Part shown: piece by piece, positions 50,092 through 64,000 of the stretch
Position numbering within the stretch: the first letter of the stretch is position 1
How the letters are laid out: every line of letters begins with the position of its first letter
DNA from: Burkholderiaceae bacterium
Lineage (GTDB): Bacteria; Pseudomonadota; Gammaproteobacteria; Burkholderiales; Burkholderiaceae_E
Reading direction: 5' to 3'
Assembly (NCBI GenBank): GCA_021166725.1
Contig: JAJPES010000077.1
Span: 1 to 64,000 of the forward strand
Length of the DNA: 64,000 nt
The notes under the pieces: model-generated
What the model saw: only the letters and a program-made list of their open reading frames with translations
What the model was told of the DNA's origin: nothing
The model's database searches: none
Program-made: the position numbers and the translations under genes

Positions 50092-50559
50092 ATTGTTTTC
50101 TCCCCTGCCCGGCGCCGGGATCTACGCAAGAACCCTGCCATACAAGGACAAGAGCAGCGTTCCGCCCTCCAAGCACGAAAACACCTGGAGGCACGGGCTA
50201 TATCCGATACAGAACGTCAACTATGGCGACGCTGAACGCGTTCGAAACCTCGCTTCATCGCAGGAAAAAGCGCCGTCCATTCAATGGCTTGCGCAGCGCT
50301 CCCAGTGCGCAGCGAAGTTGAAGATGCAACAGATATGCCGTAAACGGAGCCGACAGATTGTTCAGTTTTGAACGCTTTTTGCTGTTCTTGCTGTATCGGA
50401 ACCGATGGCCGCAGCGCCCGTGAAACGGTTTCAGGGATGCGAACGACGCGTTTGTTGCATGTGAAACAACGATCGCCATTAAGGAACGAATGGCACGTTT
50501 CCTGCTTCGGTAATCGGGCGCTCGACAACAGCAGGCACGGGAAGACAGGGGAGTCGAAA
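50092..50559. promoter_or_regulatory. 468-base divergent spacer epsB / PEP-CTERM
   Basis: No coding gene is supported here. The right part holds a sigma-54 promoter at 50491. An imperfect palindrome, GTGAAACGGTTTCAG, lies at 50420-50434, about 80-100 bases upstream of the expected start, where enhancer-binding proteins usually bind. Another GTGAAAC is at 50461-50467. The left 150 bases should contain the epsB promoter, but no clear boxes were seen. Confidence 0.45.
50491..50506 (+). promoter_or_regulatory. Putative sigma-54 promoter of a PEP-CTERM gene
   Basis: TGGCACGTTTCCTGCT matches the -24/-12 consensus at all but one of the twelve defined positions. It predicts a start near 50517, 43 bases before the ATG at 50560. 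The flank GGAAC just upstream also occurs before the site at 26628. PEP-CTERM systems are known to use a sigma-54 activator (PrsK/PrsR), which supports this call. Confidence 0.75.
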
Positions 50560-51066
50560 ATGAAGAAATCGCTGACAGCAATCGCCGTATGCGGCGCGCT
50601 TTTCGCTTTCGCCGGTCAGGCGAATGCAGATACTTGGAACGCTGGGACTCTCACTTCAGCAGCTAGTGTTCACACGTTCATCAACCCGGCTGGAACCTTC
50701 AACGATTACGTCAATTTCCAGATTCCGTCGCTCTCGGATCTCGGTGCGAGCGCTGTGCCACTGAATCTGACGTTTCCGGGTGTCTCGTTCGGCGTAACAG
50801 GTCTGACGGGATATCTGTTCGATGCGCTGAACGGCGTTGGCAATCAACTCCACACGATGCAGGGCGACAACGCGACGTACACCTTCAGTAACCTTGGAGC
50901 AGGTTCCTACAGTTTCCGGTTCACGGGAGACGCTGCCTCCGGAGGCGGCGGTTACATGGTCGGCCTCTCAGTCGCCGCGATCCCCGAACCCAGCGAATGG
51001 GCAATGATGCTCGCCGGCCTGGGTCTCGTCGGCGCCGTCGCGGCACGCCGTCGCCGTCGCGCATAA
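50560..51066 (+). CDS. PEP-CTERM sorting-domain protein (FxDxF-like)
   Basis: 168 residues. Signal peptide MKKSLTAIAVCGALFAFAGQ ends ANA before DTWNAG. The segment AGTFNDYVNFQIPSLSDLG resembles the FxDxF-type PEP-CTERM proteins, followed by a Gly-rich beta body and the sorting tail IPEPSEWAMMLAGLGLVGAV with ARRRRRA. GGGGAG precedes the ATG. It has a dedicated promoter and a strong terminator, so it is probably a single-gene transcript with high output, likely a matrix protein tied to the polysaccharide. Confidence 0.9.
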   Translation: MKKSLTAIAVCGALFAFAGQANADTWNAGTLTSAASVHTFINPAGTFNDYVNFQIPSLSDLGASAVPLNLTFPGVSFGVTGLTGYLFDALNGVGNQLHTMQGDNATYTFSNLGAGSYSFRFTGDAASGGGGYMVGLSVAAIPEPSEWAMMLAGLGLVGAVAARRRRRA

Positions 51067-52269: not shown

Positions 52270-53670
52270 ATGACCCTGGCCCAACTTCTCGTCACCCTAC
52301 GCGTGCGCTGGTGGGTTGCGGTGCTCGTGTTGGCGACGACCGTGCTCACGACGCTGGTGGTCAGCGTGCAACTGCCCAAGCGCTACACCTCCGTCGCCCA
52401 GGTGATCGTCGACATCAAGGACCCGATCGGCGGAGGCGTGCTCGCGGCACAGGCGGGCAGCAGTTACATGGCGACGCAAATCGACATCATCAACAGCCGA
52501 AAAGTGGCGTTGCGAGTTGTCGACCGCCTACGCCTCGCGGAGAACACGACCGCGGTCGAGCAGTGGCGCTCGTCCACCGACGGCGGCCAGGGTTCGATCC
52601 GGCACTATTACGCGGATTTGCTGCTGAAGTACCTCGAGGTGAAGCCGTCGCGCGAATCTACGGTGGTGAGCATCGGGTACTCGAGCGGCGATCCGAACTT
52701 CGCGGCCACGGTAGCCAACGAATTCGCCCAGGCGTACATCGACACGAACATCGAACTGCGCGTGGAACCCGCTCGGCAGAGCGCGTCGTGGTTCGACGAA
52801 CAGACGCGTCAATTGCGGGAGAGCCTCGACCGCGCGCAAGGCCGACTCAGCGACTACCAGCGCAGCAAGGGCATTGTCAGCGCCGAAGAACGGCTCGACG
52901 TCGAGACCCTCAAGCTGCAGGAACTGAGCAGCCAGGCGACACAACTTGCCGCAGTAGCCGTGGAAAGCGCCAAGCGTCGATCGCTGGCGAAACAGGCGCT
53001 GGCGCTCGGTGGTGCGGCTGAACTGCCCGACGTCGTCGCGAACCCTCTGGTCGCGCAACTCAAGGCCGACCAGGCTCGCATGGAAGGCAAGCTCAAGGAA
53101 CAGGGCGCAATTCTCGGAGCCAACCACCCCGAGATCCTCAAGCTGCGACAGGAGCTCGAGAGCAACCGCGCGAGGCTCGCGCGCGAGATCGAGACGGTGG
53201 CCAACAGCCTCGACAAGACGGCCATGGTGAACACCCAGCGCGAGGCCGAGGCGCGCGCGGCGCTCGAGCGACAGCGTGCGCGGGTGCTGCAGATCAAGCA
53301 GGCGCGCGAAGAACTCACGGTGCTTCAGCGCGACGTCGAAAACGCGCAACGCGCGTACGACGCCGTGACGCAGCGCCTCACGCAAACGAACCTCGAGAGC
53401 CAGGCGGTGCAGGCGAACATCCTGCTGCTGAACCGGGCTGAGCCATCGATCGAGCCGTCGAGCCCGAGGATCGTGCTGAACGTGGCGATTTCGGCATTTC
53501 TCGGCTTGCTGCTCGGTGTCGCAGCAGCGGTTGCGCTCGAACTCGCCAACCGGCGCGTACGTCGACCCGAAGATCTGCTCGAGGTGATCCGAGCGCCGCT
53601 CCTCGCGGAGATCGGCGCCGTACCGACGCGAATGCAACGCCGCCAGGCCTGGTCAAAGGTGGCGTCGTGA
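52270..53670 (+). CDS. epsF: Chain length determinant protein EpsF
   Basis: 466-residue Wzz/GumC-type inner-membrane protein. One helix is near residues 12-33 (VRWWVAVLVLATTVLTTLVV) and another at about 410-432 (VLNVAISAFLGLLLGVAAAV). Between them lies a long helical, partly coiled-coil region (residues 165-375, KLKEQGAILGANHPEILKLR). It controls polymer length with EpsG. GAGG lies nine bases upstream of the ATG. The stop overlaps epsG by four bases (GTGA). Confidence 0.93.
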   Translation: MTLAQLLVTLRVRWWVAVLVLATTVLTTLVVSVQLPKRYTSVAQVIVDIKDPIGGGVLAAQAGSSYMATQIDIINSRKVALRVVDRLRLAENTTAVEQWRSSTDGGQGSIRHYYADLLLKYLEVKPSRESTVVSIGYSSGDPNFAATVANEFAQAYIDTNIELRVEPARQSASWFDEQTRQLRESLDRAQGRLSDYQRSKGIVSAEERLDVETLKLQELSSQATQLAAVAVESAKRRSLAKQALALGGAAELPDVVANPLVAQLKADQARMEGKLKEQGAILGANHPEILKLRQELESNRARLAREIETVANSLDKTAMVNTQREAEARAALERQRARVLQIKQAREELTVLQRDVENAQRAYDAVTQRLTQTNLESQAVQANILLLNRAEPSIEPSSPRIVLNVAISAFLGLLLGVAAAVALELANRRVRRPEDLLEVIRAPLLAEIGAVPTRMQRRQAWSKVAS

Positions 53671-54614
53671 ATACCCCGGAGATCGTCCACTACGCTTCCG
53701 TCTCAGGACGATCCGTCGACGAAGGGTCGAAGCGCACGCCCGGGGTTCGCGTAGCTTCCGCGCACTCGCCGACGCTTCGCGATCGCCCGATCGGTGCGAT
53801 CCTGCTCGACGCCGGACTCATCGAACTCGCCGACGTCGAGCGCATCGTGGCGCGGCAGCGCGAGAACAAACTGCGCTTCGGTGACGCCGCGGTGTCGCTC
53901 GGGCTGGTGAACACGGCCGATCTGCGCGCCGCGCTCGCCTATCAGTTCGACTATCCGGTGCTCGCTCCTGGCAGCAGCCGGATCAGCCGTGAAGTGCTCG
54001 CCGCCTACGATTCCGCACATCCCGTACTCGACGACATCCGGTCGCTGCGCAACCAGTTGCTTCTGCGATGGCTGACGGCCGAAGGCCAGTGCAACCGCGT
54101 GATCGCCATAGCCAGCCCCGACAGCGGAGACGGGCGCAGCTTCGTGGCGGCGAATCTCGCAGTGACCTTCTCGCAAATGGGCCAGCGCACGCTGCTCGTC
54201 GACGCCGATTTGCGCCGCCCGCGCATGCACCAACTCTTCGGGCTGGACGACCGAGCGGGACTGTCGGCGATGCTCGCCGACCGGAATGTGCGCGACGCGC
54301 AGCACCGTATCGAGGGGCTGCACGACCTCACCGTGATCCCGGTCGGCGGCCTGCCGCCAAACCCGCAGGATCTGCTGTCGCGCGACTCGTTCGCCGAACT
54401 GCTCGCCACCCTGTCGACCGGGTACGACGCGATCGTCGTGGATACACCGGCAGCTTCGTCGAGCCCGGAAGCATCGGTGATCGCGACTCGCGCACGTGGT
54501 TGCGTCGTGGTGGCCCGGCAGGGGTACACACGCTTGGACGCGCTGGCTACGCTCGGGCAGGATCTCGAGGAACTCGGTGTATCAATCATCGGTTCGATCT
54601 ACTGCAGGCACTGA
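53667..54614 (+). CDS. epsG: Chain length tyrosine kinase EpsG
   Basis: 315 residues from a GTG overlapping epsF. The N-terminal MshEN-like region is PIGAILLDAGLIELADVERI, up to AYQFDYPVL. The BY-kinase domain has the P-loop SPDSGDGRSFVAANLAV (Arg instead of Lys, as in other EpsG) at about 150-166, Walker A' TLLVDADLRRPR at 175-186, and the later VDTPAASSSPEA. The C-terminus is short, IYCRH, with one Tyr instead of a Tyr cluster. It is the cytoplasmic partner of EpsF. Confidence 0.92.
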   Translation: MNTPEIVHYASVSGRSVDEGSKRTPGVRVASAHSPTLRDRPIGAILLDAGLIELADVERIVARQRENKLRFGDAAVSLGLVNTADLRAALAYQFDYPVLAPGSSRISREVLAAYDSAHPVLDDIRSLRNQLLLRWLTAEGQCNRVIAIASPDSGDGRSFVAANLAVTFSQMGQRTLLVDADLRRPRMHQLFGLDDRAGLSAMLADRNVRDAQHRIEGLHDLTVIPVGGLPPNPQDLLSRDSFAELLATLSTGYDAIVVDTPAASSSPEASVIATRARGCVVVARQGYTRLDALATLGQDLEELGVSIIGSIYCRH

Positions 54615-54657
54615 CGAACGGCGAACGCGCAGCTCGGTGGACGAGGTGCGCGCGAGA

Positions 54658-55965
54658 ATGTTCGTCGACTTCTGTGCAGCACTGGAATCGCGCGGGATCC
54701 GGTATGTGATTCTCGCCGGACACGATTTCTATCCGGATCGCATCGATTCGGATGTCGACTTCATGGTGTCGGAGGCGGACTTCGAGCGTCTGCCACGCTT
54801 GTTCGCCTCGGAGGGGTTCATCCCGGGCGCGCGCCTCATCCACACCTCTCAGCATGAAACAACTGCCTGCTGCTTCGTCTTTACGCAGCAAATCGGTTCG
54901 CGACTCGCCTTCCTGCATGCCGATGCATCCGCCAGCTATCGACGCAGGGGACGGTTGTGGATGCGCAGCGAGACCGTCCTGTCGAGTCGTCGCAGGAGTC
55001 CCGGCGGATTCTGGATTCCCGCCCCCGCCGTGGAGTTCGAGTATTACCTGGTGAAGCGGTTGGACAAGGGTCGTCTCGAACTGCCGCAACTCAAAGTGCT
55101 GGCAGCGAGGTTCGTCGAAGAAGCCCCGGCCTGCAAGGCGGTACTCGCCAATATATTGCCACCCCCGCTGGCGGATTCGACTGCACACGCCATCGCGCGA
55201 CGCGATGCGCGATGGTTCGCGAATCACACAAGAGAGTTGAGGCAGGCGATCCTGCGCTCGATGTCCAAGGAGGGGCTTGCACGTCGATCGATTGCCCGCG
55301 TCGGCGAACTGCGGCGCAAGTGGCTGCGAGTTATGCAGCCAACCGGGTTCGTAATTGCGGTATTAGGGCCCGATGGCAGCGGCAAGACAACCGTGATCGA
55401 GCACCTGGAGCACGAACTCGCACCGGTATTTCGGCGCGCGCGGCGGTTTCACTTGCGACCACGATTCGGTACTGCTCCGGGCACCACAACCTGTGCGAAG
55501 CCGCACGGACAACCGCCGCGCAGCTGGGCGGCTAGTGCGCTGAAAGTGCTGCTCTTTGCGAGTGACTACTGGACCGGATGGCTTGGAATCGTACTGGCGG
55601 CGCGCGTGCGCTCGACCCTATTGATCTTCGACCGCTACTACCAGGACATGCTCGTGGATCCGGTTCGCTATCGGCTTCCGCCACGATTCGGCCTGGCACG
55701 TTCGTTCGCGCCGTCGATACCGAAGCCGGACATGTGGCTCGTTCTTCGCACCTCGCCGACGGCCTTGATCGCTCGCAAGCAGGAACTCGATCCGATGGCA
55801 GCAGAGGATCTCGTCGAGCGTTATAGCAACCTCACTGCGGAGCTGGCGGGCGCGTTCGAAATCTCCACCGACGGCGCGCTGGAGTCTTCCCTCGAACGCG
55901 CAGTCACGACCGTGCGAACCGAATTGGAAAGGCGGGTGTTCGTACGCATCGGAGTAGCGCGATGA
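54658..55965 (+). CDS. Nucleotidyltransferase-like domain fused to thymidylate-kinase-like domain
   Basis: 435 residues. The N-terminal half (about 1-160) looks like a nucleotidyltransferase fold, with SRGIRYVILAGHDFYPDRID and SDVDFMVSEADFE, which has the metal-binding acidic pair. The C-terminal half has a P-loop AVLGPDGSGKTTVIEHL (residues 234-250), LIFDRYYQDMLVDP and a kinase-like end. The ATG at 54658 follows GACGAGG; GTGs at 54637 and 54646 are alternatives. This pairing occurs in some exopolysaccharide loci. The substrate is unknown. The next gene overlaps by four bases. Confidence 0.7.
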   Translation: MFVDFCAALESRGIRYVILAGHDFYPDRIDSDVDFMVSEADFERLPRLFASEGFIPGARLIHTSQHETTACCFVFTQQIGSRLAFLHADASASYRRRGRLWMRSETVLSSRRRSPGGFWIPAPAVEFEYYLVKRLDKGRLELPQLKVLAARFVEEAPACKAVLANILPPPLADSTAHAIARRDARWFANHTRELRQAILRSMSKEGLARRSIARVGELRRKWLRVMQPTGFVIAVLGPDGSGKTTVIEHLEHELAPVFRRARRFHLRPRFGTAPGTTTCAKPHGQPPRSWAASALKVLLFASDYWTGWLGIVLAARVRSTLLIFDRYYQDMLVDPVRYRLPPRFGLARSFAPSIPKPDMWLVLRTSPTALIARKQELDPMAAEDLVERYSNLTAELAGAFEISTDGALESSLERAVTTVRTELERRVFVRIGVAR

Positions 55966-57284
55966 GCCAGACAAGGCGTCCATTGAAGGTGCTTCTGTCG
56001 GCATACGCCTGCGAGCCCGACCGCGGATCGGAACCGGGGGTCGGCTGGAACTGGATGCTGGCCCTTCTGCGCCGCGGCTATCACGTATGGGTTATCACGC
56101 GGGCGAACAATCGCCATCGGATCGAAAAAGCGTGCGAAGAACGCGAGTTGCCGTTGGGTAGTCGCCTGCACTTCGTGTATTACGACCTGCCCCGTTGGGC
56201 CCGCTGGTGGAAGAGAGGTGGCGCCGGCGTTCACCTCTATTACACCCTCTGGCAAAGACAGATCTATTCGCTCGCAATACACGAGCACAGACGACATCGA
56301 TTCGATGTTGTGCATCACCTGACTTTCGGTGTATGGCGCCAAACAAGCCACCTCCACAAGCTGGGCGTTCCGTTCATCTTCGGGCCGGTCGGCGGTGGCG
56401 AGGAGGCTCCGTGGGCTCTGGTTCGTACACTGCCGCTAAATGACAGATTTCTGGAGATCGCGAGAGTCTTTCTCAACCGGGTCGCGCTCCTGAACCCCCA
56501 ACTGCGTGCCTGTGCACGTAAAGCAGCGCTCGTCGTCGCGCGTACCCCGGAGACCGCACAGCGGCTTCGACGATTCGGTATTGATTGCACCGTCGCACCC
56601 GACATCGGCATCGACACAGATGGGATCGTCCCTGCGAACGAAACATGCAATGGCCCCCTTCGATGCATCTATGCGGGACGTCTTCTCGGCTGGAAAGGCG
56701 TGCATCTAGCAATCGACGCGGTCAGGAAGGCTCGGCAGAACGGCGCAAAAGTCACACTGACAATCGTGGGTCGGGGGGCGCTGCGCAATGCACTCGAAGA
56801 GCGCGCCGTTGAACTCACCGCAGACGACACGATCCGCTTCGTCGATTGGCTCGCTCAGGGAGACCTCTTCGATGCGTATCGACGTCATGACCTGTTGCTG
56901 TTCCCGAGCCTGCATGACTCTGGCGGCAGCGTAGTGCTGGAGGCAATGGCGCAGGGACTTCCCGTGGTATGCCTGGGCCTCGGCGGCCCCGGCGCGATCG
57001 TCGACGCAAGTTGCGGCACCGCCGTCGCGAGCCGAGGCCGGCGCGCAAGCGAGGTCATCGATGAACTCGCTTCCGTTCTTTCCTCGCTCTTTGCCGACAC
57101 GGTCGCACTCGACCAGCTGAAGCGCGGAGCGTACGCCCGCGCCGTGGCAATGAACTGGGATCGTACTGTCCAGCGTACCTACGACCATATTCCCGCTGAA
57201 ACCGCGGGCGACTGCCATGCGGCCGGCAACGTGGCGACATGCCGGCCGAGCGGCCGGCGGCCGGCCCTACAACGCGGGCAGTAG
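55962..57284 (+). CDS. GT4-like glycosyltransferase
   Basis: 440-residue GT-B-fold enzyme. The N-terminal domain is KVLLSAYACEPDRGSEPGVG to PFIFGPVGGGEEAPW. The C-terminal donor-binding domain shows CIYAGRLLGWKGVHLAIDA, LTIVGRGALRNAL and FPSLHDSGGSVVLEAMAQGL. It adds a sugar to the lipid-linked repeat. The final 20 residues overlap the next gene start. Donor and acceptor are unknown. Confidence 0.9.
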   Translation: MSQTRRPLKVLLSAYACEPDRGSEPGVGWNWMLALLRRGYHVWVITRANNRHRIEKACEERELPLGSRLHFVYYDLPRWARWWKRGGAGVHLYYTLWQRQIYSLAIHEHRRHRFDVVHHLTFGVWRQTSHLHKLGVPFIFGPVGGGEEAPWALVRTLPLNDRFLEIARVFLNRVALLNPQLRACARKAALVVARTPETAQRLRRFGIDCTVAPDIGIDTDGIVPANETCNGPLRCIYAGRLLGWKGVHLAIDAVRKARQNGAKVTLTIVGRGALRNALEERAVELTADDTIRFVDWLAQGDLFDAYRRHDLLLFPSLHDSGGSVVLEAMAQGLPVVCLGLGGPGAIVDASCGTAVASRGRRASEVIDELASVLSSLFADTVALDQLKRGAYARAVAMNWDRTVQRTYDHIPAETAGDCHAAGNVATCRPSGRRPALQRGQ

Positions 57285-59776
57285 CTCGATTCTCTTCGAT
57301 GGCCGGAACCGTCGCTGCGCGCACCCCGGTTTGGAGCCTCGCCGACCAGGCATTGGTCAGCGCCGTCAACTTCCTGAGCAGCGTCATCCTCGCGCGCACG
57401 TTGGGACTGGAAGCCTTCGGTGCGTACGCCGTAGCGCAGATGTATCTCTTCTACGCCAATACCTTTCAGGGAGCTTTAGTCGTCTCTCCGATGATGATCG
57501 AGGTTCCGGCGCATGGCGGGACGGGCGGCGATCGACGTAGGCTTCTGAACGGCTATCTCGGCTACTCGACGATCGTAGGCCTCGCGACCGTCGTTACCGT
57601 GCAACTTCTCGCCGAAATTTTGGGGCGCTGGTCGGGCGCGCTCTCGGTCCGCGGGTTAGTGCTTCCCCTGGCGATCCTGATGATCGCCTTTCCGACGCAG
57701 GACTGGCTGCGGCGGGTCCACTACACGCAAAGCGCGCACCGCCGAGCTTTCTTTTCGGACGCCCTTGCCTACGGCGGCTACCTCAGCGCGCTACTGCTGT
57801 TAGCCACACATCATCGTCTTGATGCTGCCGCGGCATTCTGGGCAATGGCTTTCTCTTTCGGGGCCACGGCCCTCGCAGGTCTCGCATTGGACAGGTATTG
57901 GCCGGACCTCCGCCGCTCGGCGCGCGTCATTCGAGCCCAATGGCGCAGCAGCCGCGATTATCTATTGAGCTGGCAACTGCAGTGGCTGGCCTCGCAGGGC
58001 GTGATTCTCTTCGGCACCGCCATCGCGGGCCAGCAGGCTGCGGGCGCCCTCCGCGCAGCGCAGAACCTGCTCGGTCCGGTGGTTGTCCTGTTTCAATGGC
58101 TGGACAACGTCTTGCCGGTGCATTTCGCTAGACACTTGAAAGATGCGGGTGCCGACGCGCTCCGATTGCATGCGAGCCGCCTTCGCAATCTGGGATTGGT
58201 CGGGCTCGCACTCGCTGCCGTACTGCTCGCGACGTTCAGCGGTACGTTGATGGCCATGATCTACGGAGAGCCGTATCGTCCGTTCGCAACGCTAGCGAAT
58301 GCGTTCGCGCTCTACTTTCTGCTCGGCTATGCGTACCGAATCGACGCGTATCAGGTACGCGTACTCGGACACACGGCACCGCTCGCCAGGGCGAGCGCCC
58401 TTTGGGCTGCCGTCAGCGTTCTCTCGTCGCTGGTTCTGGCTTTGAGCGGCAAGCTTGACGCGCTTGGAATCCTGGCAGCGATGATTTCGGGGCAGATGGT
58501 CGCCGTCTTACACCTCGCCTTGACGCGTAATCGTCGGCCGCAGTCGCCGCACGTGCAGAGACATTCGGAGCCGACCTTTATCGTATTGAGAGACCGGCGA
58601 GGCCGGCCATGGCTGGTGCTGCCCACCGCCACCGCGAGACACATGCGCGCGACGCTTCAGTTGTATGCGCCGTCACGTTGGTCGGGCCGAATTTATCGCT
58701 TTACCTTGCGTACGCTGCTGCCAATCGCGATGACGATCGGATGGGTCCGTTGCATGTCCGCTGCGCAAGCCGGCATTCCGGATCTCTCGCCGATCTTGGC
58801 TTCGGCACCGAACGCCCGTGCTGATTTCGTCGGCGGGCTGATATCGGAGGAACTGCCCGGAGCACGGAAGCTGACGCTGCGGATCATGGATCCACAAGGG
58901 GCAGCGCTTGCGTACGCAAGACTCGGCTCGCATCCCATGGTCCTGACGCGCTTGGCTGCGGAAGTCGAGGTATTGCGGAGCCTGGTCGCGACTGAGGTCG
59001 CGAACAAGGTTCCCACGGTACTGGCAGACGGGCTGCTGCAGCCCGACGGCATGCGGTATTTGCTCGAGTCAGCGGGGCCCGATCGGAGCGCGAGTGCAAT
59101 CCTTAGAGACACACATTTCCGATTTCTCGCTGCGCTCACGACGAATGCAAGCGTATTGTTAAATGACGTTACGAAGAAACTAGAACGTGATCTAGCGCCC
59201 TTCCTGTCCGCGAAGAATCTTGCGAGCATCACGGTGACGAAGGCGCTGGCGAACCTAACGTTGTACCGAGACTCACGGCTGGCGCTCTGCATCGAGCATG
59301 GCGATTTTGCTCCTTGGAACATCCGGCAGCGCGTAGATGGACAGATCTTCGTGATCGACTGGGAGCACGCGCAGCCCGAAGGGCTGCCGTGGTGCGACGC
59401 ACTTCATTTCTGCTTCCAGACCGCCGTTCTGGCAAGGCGCCGGTCAGCAACGGCGGTGCTGGCCGAGATGCGGGCGACAATGCGTTCGGAGAACGCGCGC
59501 TCGTATGAGCAGGCGGTGACAAGCGGCCGTCAGACGCTCGACATCGACCAGTTTATCTCGCTCTATCTGCTGAGGGCGATCGCCCGGAGTGTCATCGACG
59601 GGCGCGCTACAAACCCGCTTCTTCAGCGGACGCGCCTCGAGATCCTCGGATTGCTGATTAAGGATCGGTACAAGTTCGAAGAACGAACCATCGTCAAAGT
59701 GACCTCTGGGCAGACTGTTCCATCGGAAGAATGCACCGCGATCACGGCGACAGCCGTCCGCGGCGAATCCCGATGA
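57239..59776 (+). CDS. Flippase (Wzx-like) fused to an aminoglycoside-phosphotransferase-like kinase
   Basis: 845 residues from ATG at 57239; ATG at 57299, after the glycosyltransferase stop, is an alternative. Residues about 30-430 form a 12-14-helix polysaccharide exporter of the Wzx/MATE type (QALVSAVNFLSSVILARTLG). Residues about 560-830 resemble the APH/choline kinase fold. The catalytic loop is HGDFAPWN with H687, and the metal site is VIDWEHA with D707. The lipid-linked sugar repeat could be phosphorylated or phosphoryl-modified during flipping, which is inference. G+C falls in this part of the locus. Confidence 0.8.
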   Translation: MPAERPAAGPTTRAVARFSSMAGTVAARTPVWSLADQALVSAVNFLSSVILARTLGLEAFGAYAVAQMYLFYANTFQGALVVSPMMIEVPAHGGTGGDRRRLLNGYLGYSTIVGLATVVTVQLLAEILGRWSGALSVRGLVLPLAILMIAFPTQDWLRRVHYTQSAHRRAFFSDALAYGGYLSALLLLATHHRLDAAAAFWAMAFSFGATALAGLALDRYWPDLRRSARVIRAQWRSSRDYLLSWQLQWLASQGVILFGTAIAGQQAAGALRAAQNLLGPVVVLFQWLDNVLPVHFARHLKDAGADALRLHASRLRNLGLVGLALAAVLLATFSGTLMAMIYGEPYRPFATLANAFALYFLLGYAYRIDAYQVRVLGHTAPLARASALWAAVSVLSSLVLALSGKLDALGILAAMISGQMVAVLHLALTRNRRPQSPHVQRHSEPTFIVLRDRRGRPWLVLPTATARHMRATLQLYAPSRWSGRIYRFTLRTLLPIAMTIGWVRCMSAAQAGIPDLSPILASAPNARADFVGGLISEELPGARKLTLRIMDPQGAALAYARLGSHPMVLTRLAAEVEVLRSLVATEVANKVPTVLADGLLQPDGMRYLLESAGPDRSASAILRDTHFRFLAALTTNASVLLNDVTKKLERDLAPFLSAKNLASITVTKALANLTLYRDSRLALCIEHGDFAPWNIRQRVDGQIFVIDWEHAQPEGLPWCDALHFCFQTAVLARRRSATAVLAEMRATMRSENARSYEQAVTSGRQTLDIDQFISLYLLRAIARSVIDGRATNPLLQRTRLEILGLLIKDRYKFEERTIVKVTSGQTVPSEECTAITATAVRGESR

Positions 59777-59780
59777 GGCC

Positions 59781-61451
59781 ATGAGCACACAATCGCACGG
59801 GGTGCCACTCCGCATTTACCGCGCATCCGGGCGCGGGTTCGCTTGGTCAGCCGCTTGGGTCGCAACCCTAGGCCTAGGGATCGCGTTCGCGATCGCAACC
59901 GGTATCGCAGTTGCCATCGCCTGGTGGTTGGTCGTGCCCGCGCTGATTGTTACATTCGCGCTGGTTGCGATCGGTGCGCTTCTGGTCGCCGTCGCGCCGT
60001 CGGCTCCGCTCTGGGCCCGGATGACGCTCGTCGTTCTTCTCGGCCATCTGCTGCTCAACTACGGTTTCGCGAATGCCGTGCTGGCTATAGGACCCGTGCG
60101 CGCGCCATTGAGCGAACTGGTGCTGGTAATCGCGCTTGTCGGTTCGGGTGTCTATCTGTTGCGAGCCGGCGCTCAATGCGTGCCAGCGACCATGTGGTTG
60201 TTCCTCGCCTGGTTGACCTTCGTGCTGGGGATGCATGTTCCAAGAGGTTTTGCCCGGTATGGCATCGTGGCGCTGCGCGATGCGTTGCCGACCGTGCAAA
60301 TGCTCTACCTGCTGCCGGGATTCGTAATCGCCCACATGGCGATGCGCCACGCCGATGGAGCTCGCTGGACTCGACGATTCGTCCTGATTGTCGGAGTGTG
60401 CATAGCCGTCTACGGGCTCGCGTATCCCCTTCAGAAGACACTCCTCGGCTATTCACCCCGCGTCACCGGAATGCAACAGGCGGTTCCGTTGGTGGGCTAT
60501 TTCGCATCCTGGCCGCAGGTCGCCCTCACCGGAATCTGCGGTGTGCTGCTGTGGGGCTGGGCGCGCCCCGAGCAAGACTCGTTGCTTTTCAAAGCGCTTC
60601 GCGCGGTCCTCATCACGGCATTCGGAATCTCCTTTCTGTTCGTACAGTCGCGCGGCGGCTACGTCACTGCGATCGCTCTTCTGGTTCTGCTGCTTTTGAT
60701 CGGAGATCAGGCCCGAACTGCGGGAAGGCTCGCATTGGCAGGAGTTTTCGGCGTCGTTTTGCTATTCGGTGTCAGCACACTGGGCCTCGAACTCCGGGGC
60801 CGGGTCGGAAACGTGACGCTCGAATCGGCAATTGACCACCTGACGACGCTAAGCGGACGGGCAGATTCCTCGAGCGACTTTCAAGGCGCTGCCGGCGGCA
60901 TCGTACAAAGGCGAATGTGGCGCGAACAGTCGCTGCGGTTGTGGCGCACCGATCTCGAGACCACGGTATTCGGGATCGGCTATGGACAACCACTGACCAA
61001 CTTCACTGTCGGCGGCACCGAAGGCGGATCGATCATTGTCCGGGAACCTCACAACAGCTACGTCACAATTCTTACTCGCCTGGGAGTCACCGGCATCGTC
61101 TTCATGTTGCTGTTGCACGGCATGGCTTTTGGAACGGCACTACGCCTGTATCGGAAGGCCTGCAGGTACGGCGACAGGCCGCTGGCTGCAATGGCACTCG
61201 GAACAGCCGTGTACTTCGTCTGCAACTATCTCAACGCGATCGGGCAGCCGAATTTCGAGAATCCGCACTTCGCAGTTCCGTATTTCTTTCTCGCCGGCGT
61301 GACCTTCTCGCTGTGGCGTAGTTATGAGTCGACACGCTTCTCGAAGTCGCGTTCAGCGCAATCCTCCAAAGACGTCCTGTGTCTGCACTGTTATGGCGTG
61401 AACGGTTCAGCCAAACGCATAACACGCTACAAAAAGAGAGCGAATAAATAA
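59781..61451 (+). CDS. O-antigen-ligase-like polymerase (Wzy/WaaL family)
   Basis: 556 residues with about 12 membrane helices and a large periplasmic loop (about 355-440) that holds the Wzy_C-type motif region GRADSSSDFQGA, WREQSLRLWRTDLETTVFGI and REPHNSYVTILTRLGVTG. It could polymerise repeat units or ligate them, as in O-antigen ligases. It follows the flippase by four bases. The last 40 residues are polar and basic. Confidence 0.85.
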   Translation: MSTQSHGVPLRIYRASGRGFAWSAAWVATLGLGIAFAIATGIAVAIAWWLVVPALIVTFALVAIGALLVAVAPSAPLWARMTLVVLLGHLLLNYGFANAVLAIGPVRAPLSELVLVIALVGSGVYLLRAGAQCVPATMWLFLAWLTFVLGMHVPRGFARYGIVALRDALPTVQMLYLLPGFVIAHMAMRHADGARWTRRFVLIVGVCIAVYGLAYPLQKTLLGYSPRVTGMQQAVPLVGYFASWPQVALTGICGVLLWGWARPEQDSLLFKALRAVLITAFGISFLFVQSRGGYVTAIALLVLLLLIGDQARTAGRLALAGVFGVVLLFGVSTLGLELRGRVGNVTLESAIDHLTTLSGRADSSSDFQGAAGGIVQRRMWREQSLRLWRTDLETTVFGIGYGQPLTNFTVGGTEGGSIIVREPHNSYVTILTRLGVTGIVFMLLLHGMAFGTALRLYRKACRYGDRPLAAMALGTAVYFVCNYLNAIGQPNFENPHFAVPYFFLAGVTFSLWRSYESTRFSKSRSAQSSKDVLCLHCYGVNGSAKRITRYKKRANK

Positions 61452-61468: not shown

Positions 61469-62965
61469 TCAGGGAGTCTGGTCATGAACACTGCTGACTG
61501 GCTGCATCGAGCGCGAACGCGCCGTTATGAGTTCGTTCGGCCGTAAGACTACTGTGATAGCCCCATCGTTGGTCCATAAATCCGTCCCCGGCACGAGCAA
61601 TTCGGTTGCATTGCTGCGAACCACGCCAAAGCGAAGTCTTTCCGCAATCGGCAACTCAATTGTCACTTTGTAAGTCGCCGCAGGGTGGTACCAGGCGACC
61701 CTGGAATTCTCCACCCCAGTGATGTTTGTGACAGCGACCCCCCATGATCCGTCGGGATTTTTTGCAGCTGCGGCGACAAGCCCCGGTTTTTGACCATATC
61801 CCCATTCCATAGTGCCGAAGAGCGAGCTGCTGGATGACCTGAACACGGAGCCTTGATCGAAAGTAGAAAGCAATTGCTTAAAATAGTAGTATTTAGTGTG
61901 GATCTTCAATCCGCCGCTGGTATTGTCGGGTCGAACCAGCACTTGGCCCGAGTCCTTGTGGAAGTGAGGATCCCAGGCGCCGACTCCTATAAACCAAACC
62001 CAATGGGTGACCATATGATTCATGTCATTGAGGAAACGGGCCGCCAACACTGATGCTTCCGGTGCGTTCCCCGGCTGCTCGTCTCGCCCGTTACTGGGCG
62101 TCCCCCTGCCCACCTCAGTGATCCAGTACTCTTTGCCCGTTCCGATAACCCGATCCACCATTGCGCGGTTTGCGCCCATGTTGTACGTATGGCTGGCAAT
62201 GCCCTGAATCGAATTCCACGTTTCACTGTCCTGTTTCATCGCGTCGACTGCACGAGACATACAGGCATCCGTACTTGCGCATTCGGGCGCAATGATTCCC
62301 ACATTTGAAAGCCCTCGCTGATCCAGTTCGCGGCGTAGTTCTCTGACTGCCTCCGCCAATTGCGCTGGCGAAAATCCGGCGGGCTCGTTTGCGATTCCAG
62401 TTACTTGGATCGCGACGCCTCGTTCCTCTTTTACATCCTGTATGAATTGCGCTATTCGCGCGACATAGTCCATCATTGACTCGGTTGGGGCGGACTCACC
62501 GCGCGCAGGCGCCAGCAGAAATGTCGTAACTCCGCGGATCCGCAATTCGCCTAGAAATCCGTTGTCAACATATCCAGAATAGAACTTTGATTTCATTCCG
62601 GAGAGAGTCTCGGACTCGGCGGATGGAACCCAAAGCCTCGCGATTGTCATTCCGAGATCGCGGAAGACCAGGTCCAGCATTCGCGAACGACGCATCTCGT
62701 CGAGGCCCATGACGTTGTTCCCGCGCCACGGCTGACTGGCGCCGATCCCGAGTAAAGCCTGCCGCGGCGCCTCTCCGATTCGAACTAATATCTCCGCATC
62801 GAAGGTGTCGTGGCCCGCAGACGAACCGGGTTGTTGTACGGCATGCCTGGCTCTGTCGTTCGCTGGCTCTCCAGATCTGTCTGTGGCCAAGTCGCACGAT
62901 AATCCATCAGCGGCCAGGATCACGCCGAAAGACAGGCACATGAAAGGAATTAGGAGTTTGTTCAA
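61469..62965 (-). CDS. GH30-like glycoside hydrolase
   Basis: Secreted (beta/alpha)8 enzyme of 498 residues if read from TTG at 62965. The signal-like start is MNKLLIPFMCLSFGVILAAD, with an LSC that could be a lipobox. GIGASQPWRG is typical of the first strand. The acid/base is probably E194 (TGIANEPAGFSP) and the nucleophile E284 (YWITEVGRGT). A beta-sandwich end follows. It may cut or trim the polymer. It is opposite to the polymerase gene and 55 bases after the glycosyltransferase. The start is uncertain (ATG at 62941 or an upstream site). Confidence 0.72.
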   Translation of the reverse strand: MNKLLIPFMCLSFGVILAADGLSCDLATDRSGEPANDRARHAVQQPGSSAGHDTFDAEILVRIGEAPRQALLGIGASQPWRGNNVMGLDEMRRSRMLDLVFRDLGMTIARLWVPSAESETLSGMKSKFYSGYVDNGFLGELRIRGVTTFLLAPARGESAPTESMMDYVARIAQFIQDVKEERGVAIQVTGIANEPAGFSPAQLAEAVRELRRELDQRGLSNVGIIAPECASTDACMSRAVDAMKQDSETWNSIQGIASHTYNMGANRAMVDRVIGTGKEYWITEVGRGTPSNGRDEQPGNAPEASVLAARFLNDMNHMVTHWVWFIGVGAWDPHFHKDSGQVLVRPDNTSGGLKIHTKYYYFKQLLSTFDQGSVFRSSSSSLFGTMEWGYGQKPGLVAAAAKNPDGSWGVAVTNITGVENSRVAWYHPAATYKVTIELPIAERLRFGVVRSNATELLVPGTDLWTNDGAITVVLRPNELITARSRSMQPVSSVHDQTP

Positions 62966-63020
62966 TCTTATAAGGAAACGACTTCCTCTCGTGCGGGACC
63001 GTCTGCGATAAGGTGTTTGA

Positions 63021-64000
63021 TCAATGGACCCTCGCATCCCGGTAGATCGCCTCCAACGCGCCGAGCAAGACCGATGGGCAATAGTTCCGTTCATACGCCG
63101 CCCGGGCCGACGCACTCATCTCCCTGGCTTCCGCCTCACGCAAAGAAGTCCGCAAAAGACGCTGCGACAACGCTTCGGCATTTCTCGCGGGTACACAACT
63201 TCCCGTTTCACCGCTTCTCACAATTTCCGCAAGCGAACCGATCTCACTCGCGATCACTGGGAGCCCCGCCTCGTACGCCTCCACGATCGTCATCGGAAAC
63301 CCCTCATAGCAGAGGCTTGGCACCACGAGGTACAGAGCCTGGGTCATCGCCCTGCGCACCTCCTCGGCGTTTCGCCTCCCGAGCATTCGCACGTTCGCGA
63401 TTCCCTTCAGCATCGAAGCACACGGCCCGTCGCCGATCACGTCGATCCGTACCTCCGGTGCTAGTCGCGCCGCCTGCGCGAGCACACCAATCCCCTTCTC
63501 CTCCGAGAGCCGCCCGACGTAGAGAACTCCTTCGCGCGGACCTTCCGGCGGTGCGCCCCGGTCGGGCACGAAATTCGGCTTGACGACAATCTTCTCAGGC
63601 GGCAAGCCCGCTCGCACGAAGACCTCGCGCGCGAAGCCCGTCAGCACGATGAATCGATCGACGTGTCGGTAGATCGTTCGCGTCCGATGCAGGGCAAGCG
63701 TTGCCGCAAGCACGGCGCTCTGGCTGGCCGAGTCCCGATAGCACCGGTGCAACACTCCGCGCCACGGCAGATGGCCCACGCAATCCTCGCAGGGACCGCC
63801 CTCGCGCAGCAGCATCGCGTTCAGGCACGCGAGTCGGTAGTTGTGCAGCGTCTGAACGATCGGCACGCCCGCTCGCTTCAGTGTCGGATAGACCGACGGT
63901 GAGATCAGCGGGAAGGTGTTGTGCACATGGGCTACATCCGGGCGAAAGCTCGCCGCCAGCGCGCTCAGGTCGTCGACGGAGCGCTTCGACCAGATCGTCT
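63021..64000 (-). CDS. GT4-like glycosyltransferase (partial, runs off right edge)
   Basis: A GT-B enzyme cut by the window edge. At least 326 residues are visible. Coding clearly continues beyond 64000, since the frame from the edge reads RPDVAHVHNTFPLISPSVYP, typical for the first domain. The C-terminal domain has VLYVGRLSEEKGIGVLAQAA, VIGDGPCASMLKG and PSLCYEGFPMTIVEAYEAGL. Its N-terminus is outside the window. It probably extends the repeat unit of the same polysaccharide and may be co-transcribed with the hydrolase downstream. Confidence 0.9.
   Translation of the reverse strand, partial: TIWSKRSVDDLSALAASFRPDVAHVHNTFPLISPSVYPTLKRAGVPIVQTLHNYRLACLNAMLLREGGPCEDCVGHLPWRGVLHRCYRDSASQSAVLAATLALHRTRTIYRHVDRFIVLTGFAREVFVRAGLPPEKIVVKPNFVPDRGAPPEGPREGVLYVGRLSEEKGIGVLAQAARLAPEVRIDVIGDGPCASMLKGIANVRMLGRRNAEEVRRAMTQALYLVVPSLCYEGFPMTIVEAYEAGLPVIASEIGSLAEIVRSGETGSCVPARNAEALSQRLLRTSLREAEAREMSASARAAYERNYCPSVLLGALEAIYRDARVH

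Follow-up and report, generated by a model that had tools for sequence, protein, structure and literature searches.

A Wzx-type flippase fused to an APH-type kinase half, and the gene cassette to which the kinase half belongs

The window analysed here, 64,000 nucleotides from a Burkholderiaceae bacterium (GenBank assembly GCA_021166725.1, contig JAJPES010000077.1, positions 1 to 64,000 of the forward strand), contains one 845-residue open frame (57239-59776, + strand) in which a Wzx-type flippase half and an APH-type kinase half are joined. Both protein families are already known; what is new is their fusion, together with the membership of the kinase half in a cassette found across phyla, the other members being a nucleotidyltransferase (NTase)-like/P-loop protein and a GT4 glycosyltransferase, encoded by two genes just upstream. 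Neither the fusion nor the cassette was recognised among the titles and abstract starts of the matches listed in the open-licence literature. We propose, with a probability of about 45%, that the fusion keeps a cytoplasmic kinase at the flippase, where it phosphorylates lipid-linked sugar chains.

A flippase and a kinase in one frame

The single Wzx/APH-like frame described in an initial annotation, made from the sequence alone, is confirmed by a frame check and by Pfam, and its parts are as follows.

57239-58534, + strand: N-terminal half, Wzx/MOP-type flippase, residues 1-432 (Pfam PF01943, AlphaFold model, Foldseek)
58535-59773, + strand: C-terminal half, APH-type kinase, residues 433-845 (Pfam PF01636, model, Foldseek and VIA)
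58868-58870, + strand: K544, strand 2 (modelled strand 542-550), Lys in 31/31 aligned kinase halves
58919-58921, + strand: R561, strand 3 (modelled strand 556-563), Arg in 5/31 and Lys in 26/31
59297-59320, + strand: catalytic loop HGDFAPWN, residues 687-694, with D689 and N694 in 31/31
59357-59365, + strand: DWE motif, residues 707-709, with D707 and E709 in 31/31

Over residues 37-279 the N-terminal half scores 27.5 bits against PF01943 (Polysacc_synt), just below the cut-off of 28.2, and Foldseek matches its AlphaFold model to MurJ (6nc8, E 1.5e-7) and WzxE (9g9p, E 1.2e-4), the predicted MOP (MurJ/WzxE-like) fold spanning residues ~30-430. The C-terminal half matches PF01636 (APH) over residues 568-729, with 25.5 bits in the whole protein, above the cut-off of 23.2, and 28.9 bits by itself; the same family matches 6 of 12 relatives of the kinase half at E <= 0.01. 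A family-specific N-terminal extension occupies residues ~446-530. Fold matches of the kinase half include APH, LicA, FN3K and others, many of them resistance kinases by fold alone, in searches (two Foldseek, one VIA) from which a substrate cannot be named. Six PDB sequences matched in a profile search with E values of up to 1: one Ser/Thr kinase (E 0.0027), four chains of GCN2, and corramycin phosphotransferase (E 0.73). An antibiotic-resistance role is not supported: none of these six is an aminoglycoside kinase, and the gene lies within a polysaccharide cassette.

The HGDxxxxN and DxE motifs are intact, as had been claimed, and DWE is presumably the APH-type metal-binding motif. K544, E575, H687, D689, N694, D707 and E709 are unchanged in all 31 aligned kinase halves. 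Conservation of the two motifs is partly selected in the loci of the species scan described below, because the peptides EHGDFAPW and DWEHAQPE served as search patterns there; nine loci from other genomes carry HGDFAPWN (eight) or HRDFAPWN (one), and a plasmid copy carries HGDFTPWN. An active fold is for the most part supported, the APH-fold model being confident (pLDDT 85.9), although strand 3 has an arginine instead of the usual lysine in this clade. The alignment, like the locus count given below, excludes G090/L025 (the same protein as L007), G454/L030 (at a contig end, and of the same genus as G443 and G477), G024/L003 (a weak partial APH match) and the near-identical G940/G980 pair.

The fusion recurs. 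Scanning one genome from each of 84,980 species with peptide patterns yielded 20 loci, of which L009 was reached by its flippase half and the other 19 by the kinase half or the entire protein. Three contain near-full-length matches: L006 (a Rhodocyclaceae metagenome-assembled genome, MAG) and L007 (a Burkholderiales MAG) encode single frames of 791 and 793 residues, both with 41% identity to the window protein, and L005 (a Thiomicrorhabdus MAG) encodes flippase and kinase as two genes (424 and 364 residues) with a 4-base overlap. The gene order of the window (NTase/P-loop, GT4, Wzx, kinase) is common to all three. The G090 protein is 99.9% identical to that of L007 and is therefore not counted apart, so that the fused clade comprises three distinct genomes. 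A consistently separate encoding of the two parts in homologues is thus refuted, and the same domain order, which the initial annotation had proposed to look for elsewhere, is found in L006 and L007. An origin by sequencing or assembly error, or by a chance join, which had already been doubted, is rejected because these two further genomes carry both halves in one frame. Since the L006 and L007 proteins begin at about residue 19 of the window protein in alignment, ATG 57299 (residue 21) may be the true start codon, giving 825 residues; it sits 3′ of an upstream stop codon whose last base is 57284, and no ribosome site is obvious by eye at either candidate start (57239 or 57299).

In a tree of 31 kinase halves, the three fused proteins and L005 lie on one side of a branch with support 100/100, and in a tree of 11 flippase halves they group at 99/99. 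As to whether the L005 gene pair is ancestral or the product of a later split, the kinase tree leaves the fork open, and the flippase tree pairs L005 with L007 with a support (91/97) that falls short of the customary threshold. The kinase family is rare in the sampled genomes: counting the window's own genome, its profile matched 4 of 399 genomes in the order and 4 of 398 in the phylum (E <= 1e-15; in the phylum, the other three come from one genus), 6 of 369 in the class (1e-12) and 1 of 74 in the family, and in the family of G090 it matched 1 of 4, again the L007 protein. Misses are possible in the large profile scans, since only ~4-5 candidates were scored in many genomes. The whole fusion protein found matches in 3 of 61 relatives, with a full match in its own genome only, and 2 of 72,556 plasmid records matched, both in part only.

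The cassette around the kinase half

Membership in the cassette, which the initial annotation omitted, is a stronger clue to function than the fusion features it described. The two partner genes in the window are the following.

54637-55965, + strand: protein with an NTase-like and a thymidylate-kinase-like P-loop part (frame open from 54496, profile match from 54637)
55962-57284, + strand: GT4 glycosyltransferase of the SAYACEP..GSEPGVGW type (Pfam Glycos_transf_1)

Neighbours were counted by iterative profile search in 30 kinase loci (L005-L024, L032 and L038-L046). The kinase has the P-loop partner nearby in 30/30 loci, and within 200 bases in 24, usually together with the NTase-like part of that partner; a full-length GT4 lies near the kinase in 27/30, and within 200 bases in 20, with the short signature ACEP..GSE..VG present in 16/30. 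Because the GT4 profile broadened to 74 members, that is, to GT4s at large, nearness of a GT4 in polysaccharide loci is weaker evidence than nearness of the P-loop partner. The cassette genes of L012 are fragmented; their P-loop pieces were scored as present, their GT4 pieces were not. The P-loop gene is separate in L011, L014 and L020; a separate NTase part was found in L014 and L020, and none was found apart from the P-loop gene in L011. A relative of the window Wzx occurs in 9 of the 30 loci, and Pfam identifies a further one in L046.

Pfam assigns Thymidylate_kin to 24 of 26 members of the partner family. For the NTase part, a crude (S/G)DxD pattern gave hits in 12 of 35 rows, with L023 apparently spurious and the SDVDF of the window missed. 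In the reverse search, the partner profile matched 10 of 369 class genomes, and its six strong matches (E < 1e-120) are exactly the six genomes with a kinase-half match, a co-occurrence favoured by the fact that the profile (A3) was built from kinase-linked members. The four weaker matches (G940, G964, G980 and G1050) come from genomes with no kinase-profile match in the class scan. Two of these, G940 and G980 (L057 and L058, with near-identical proteins), encode a Wzx, a divergent NTase/P-loop protein and an adjoining HGDxxxxN protein, with Wzx and APH confirmed by Pfam in the G940 copy; no HGDxxxxN protein was found in the short stretches fetched around the partner in G964 and G1050. Ten proteins, the Wzx and APH proteins of L057 among them, were submitted to Pfam. 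Six many-helix proteins near Flavobacteria-type cassettes (two in L013, one each in L011, L017, L022 and L024) gave no match, and we therefore claim no flippase near these cassettes; the rest were Wzy_C (L010), Polysacc_synt (L046 and L057) and APH (the other L057 protein). Among named records, the cassette is represented in five phyla: Pseudomonadota, Bacteroidota, Acidobacteriota, Nitrospinota and Thermomicrobiota.

The kinase half is also fused to other partners, namely to GT4 in L008 (871 residues) and L039 (790 residues) and to the NTase/P-loop protein in L038 (816 residues). In L040 (16318-19848, genome G051), P-loop, APH kinase and GT4 share one frame of ~1,170 residues that reaches the contig end, a single protein holding most of the cassette. 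Counted with the three Wzx fusions, 7 of the 31 kinase rows have a cassette partner or Wzx in the same protein. Such repeated joining of one small set of partners, in several arrangements, is an argument for their acting together. The kinase proteins of L042, L043 and L046 carry an N-terminal part of some 100-200 residues with no Pfam assignment; a methyltransferase suspected there by eye was rejected, Pfam at E <= 0.01 giving APH only.

Locus setting

The Eps context noted initially is right, and the genes that establish it in the window are given below.

52270-53670, + strand: EpsF chain-length determinant (TIGR03017, 535.4 bits, cut-off 422.75)
53667-54614, + strand: EpsG-type tyrosine kinase (TIGR03029, 304.1 bits, just below the cut-off of 313.8)
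59781-61451, + strand: Wzy_C/O-antigen ligase family protein (Pfam PF04932, 35.4 bits, cut-off 31.7)

A WcaJ-type priming transferase is also encoded within the window, and beyond it the same contig encodes an exosortase, a further GT4, a WecG/TagA transferase and an epimerase that by eye resembles GDP-fucose synthase. This gene content is consistent with an exosortase-linked exopolysaccharide locus of the Wzx/Wzy type, and with a flippase half that would move an undecaprenyl-linked unit. The fusion protein resembles the Wzx and MurJ flippases of the MOP superfamily in its setting with Wzy_C, EpsF and EpsG-type genes as well as in its predicted fold, and differs from them in having an additional ~400-residue kinase domain and a Pfam score just under the cut-off. 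Elsewhere in the window lie a PEP-CTERM protein of the FxDxF family (50368-51066, NF038126), a possible substrate of the downstream exosortase, and a glycoside hydrolase with a GH59 match (61469-63115, - strand); in L007 a different large protein (705 residues) follows the gene at the ligase position.

Possible functions and their meaning

In the mechanism we propose, which like the initial annotation would couple export to phosphorylation, a Wzx-type flippase would bear a kinase domain at its cytoplasmic end. Partnered by the NTase/P-loop protein and GT4, this domain would phosphorylate a sugar of the undecaprenyl-linked repeat unit at the inner leaflet, after which the flippase half would move the phosphorylated unit to the periplasm, to be polymerised there via the Wzy_C protein, EpsF and EpsG. 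The kinase half is placed on the cytoplasmic side because the C-terminus of MOP flippases is, we presume, cytoplasmic and because the linker is rich in arginine; the hydropathy profile is too noisy for topology. Several points weigh against this proposal. The glycan substrate is one that we infer, and the full-length model (pTM 0.57) gives no trusted placement of the flippase half relative to the kinase half. In 27 of the 30 loci the kinase shows no fusion to a Wzx and no overlap with one, so the cassette can do without the Wzx fusion. Support for calling the P-loop partner a nucleotidyltransferase is weak: the copy in the window scores 13.8 bits (E 0.042) against PF14907 (NTP_transf_5), for which the cut-off is 31.2. 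The main sequence evidence against ordinary catalysis is R561: the window, L005, L006, L007 and L008 have arginine where the other rows have the strand-3 lysine.

Known glycan kinases offer partial parallels. According to excerpts of PMC3482155, WbdD phosphorylates the O9a chain end and is essential for O9a export. This Escherichia coli kinase-methyltransferase chain terminator shares with the window protein, as proposed, a kinase, a lipid-linked glycan and a tie to export, but differs, on the same excerpts, in its ABC-dependent pathway, its methyltransferase domain, its separation from the exporter and a C-terminal region that recruits a mannosyltransferase. Excerpts of PMC11231755 describe Klebsiella pneumoniae ORF6-O7 as a methyltransferase, a kinase and glycosyltransferases in one protein, stopped by D441A, the closest solved structure to its kinase being AmiN. 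By description only, it is alike in having an APH-type kinase domain that shares a protein with glycosyltransferase modules, and differs in being ABC-dependent, with a methyltransferase partner and GT2 modules. The window locus departs from the ABC-dependent pathway, with its Wzx half, Wzy_C protein and Wzz-type EpsF, and no methyltransferase domain was found in the fusion, where Pfam at E <= 0.1 gives the flippase, APH and one chance-level family. The differences of WbdD and ORF6-O7 also count against our proposal, and because both are ABC-dependent and methyltransferase-paired, we suggest only that the fusion may work like them, not that it is a member of their group. For the NTase/P-loop partner, pseudomycoidin offers a lead only: there a kinase is paired with an annotated nucleotidyltransferase, and an excerpted review (PMC9266682) says that PsmN is responsible for the hexose on PsmK-made phosphoserine, leaving a host enzyme open as an alternative. 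The substrate is a peptide, the likeness is by description, and NTP_transf_5 is rare among the partners.

Among the alternatives, the kinase could act on a free monosaccharide as an anomeric sugar kinase, with the NTase-like partner making a nucleotide sugar for GT4 and the Wzx fusion serving only as a membrane anchor. Kinase, NTase and glycosyltransferase together follow the usual logic of sugar activation, and small-sugar APH-fold kinases (maltokinase 4u94 and glucosamine kinase 6hwl) are among the structural matches. Nevertheless, we consider this unlikely: PF14907 is found in only 1 of 26 partners at E <= 0.01, no classical sugar-nucleotidyltransferase family is among the Pfam matches listed for them, and the thymidylate-kinase-like domain and the flippase fusion are left unexplained.

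A greater degree of doubt attaches to the suggestion that the kinase half is a pseudokinase or sensor, which binds nucleotide or glycan and gates the flippase, or tethers GT4 and the P-loop partner. The strand-3 replacement in the Wzx-linked clade favours it, and the varied fusions are compatible with a scaffold, but decay should have lost some of D689, N694, D707 and E709, which are intact in every kinase half, the Wzx-linked clade included, as is K544. In WNK kinases a strand-2 lysine replaces the usual one. By analogy, one might guess that the invariant K544 stands in for the strand-3 lysine here. Read-through of two adjacent operon genes, with no functional coupling, matches the overlap in L005 and the small size of the fused clade, yet is similarly improbable, given that the fusion is retained between proteins only 41% identical and that the flippase and kinase halves group together in both trees.

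Wzx flippases and the enzymes that complete the repeat unit are usually regarded as distinct, and the way in which a flippase recognises a completed unit is a standing question. A natural flippase-kinase fusion gives a handle on it, for the phosphate may be the mark of a finished unit, and the arrangement suggests that a sugar is phosphorylated just before leaving the cell. Across five phyla, the cassette could make phosphorylated exopolysaccharides. More speculatively, and with rather low odds, it would be an undescribed phosphoglycan-building unit acting on lipid-linked repeat units, in which the kinase adds a phosphate, the NTase/P-loop partner extends or caps it, and the flippase of this clade accepts only the phosphorylated unit. 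If this were true, Wzx/Wzy export would have a phosphorylation checkpoint, comparable to the one that WbdD provides for ABC export.

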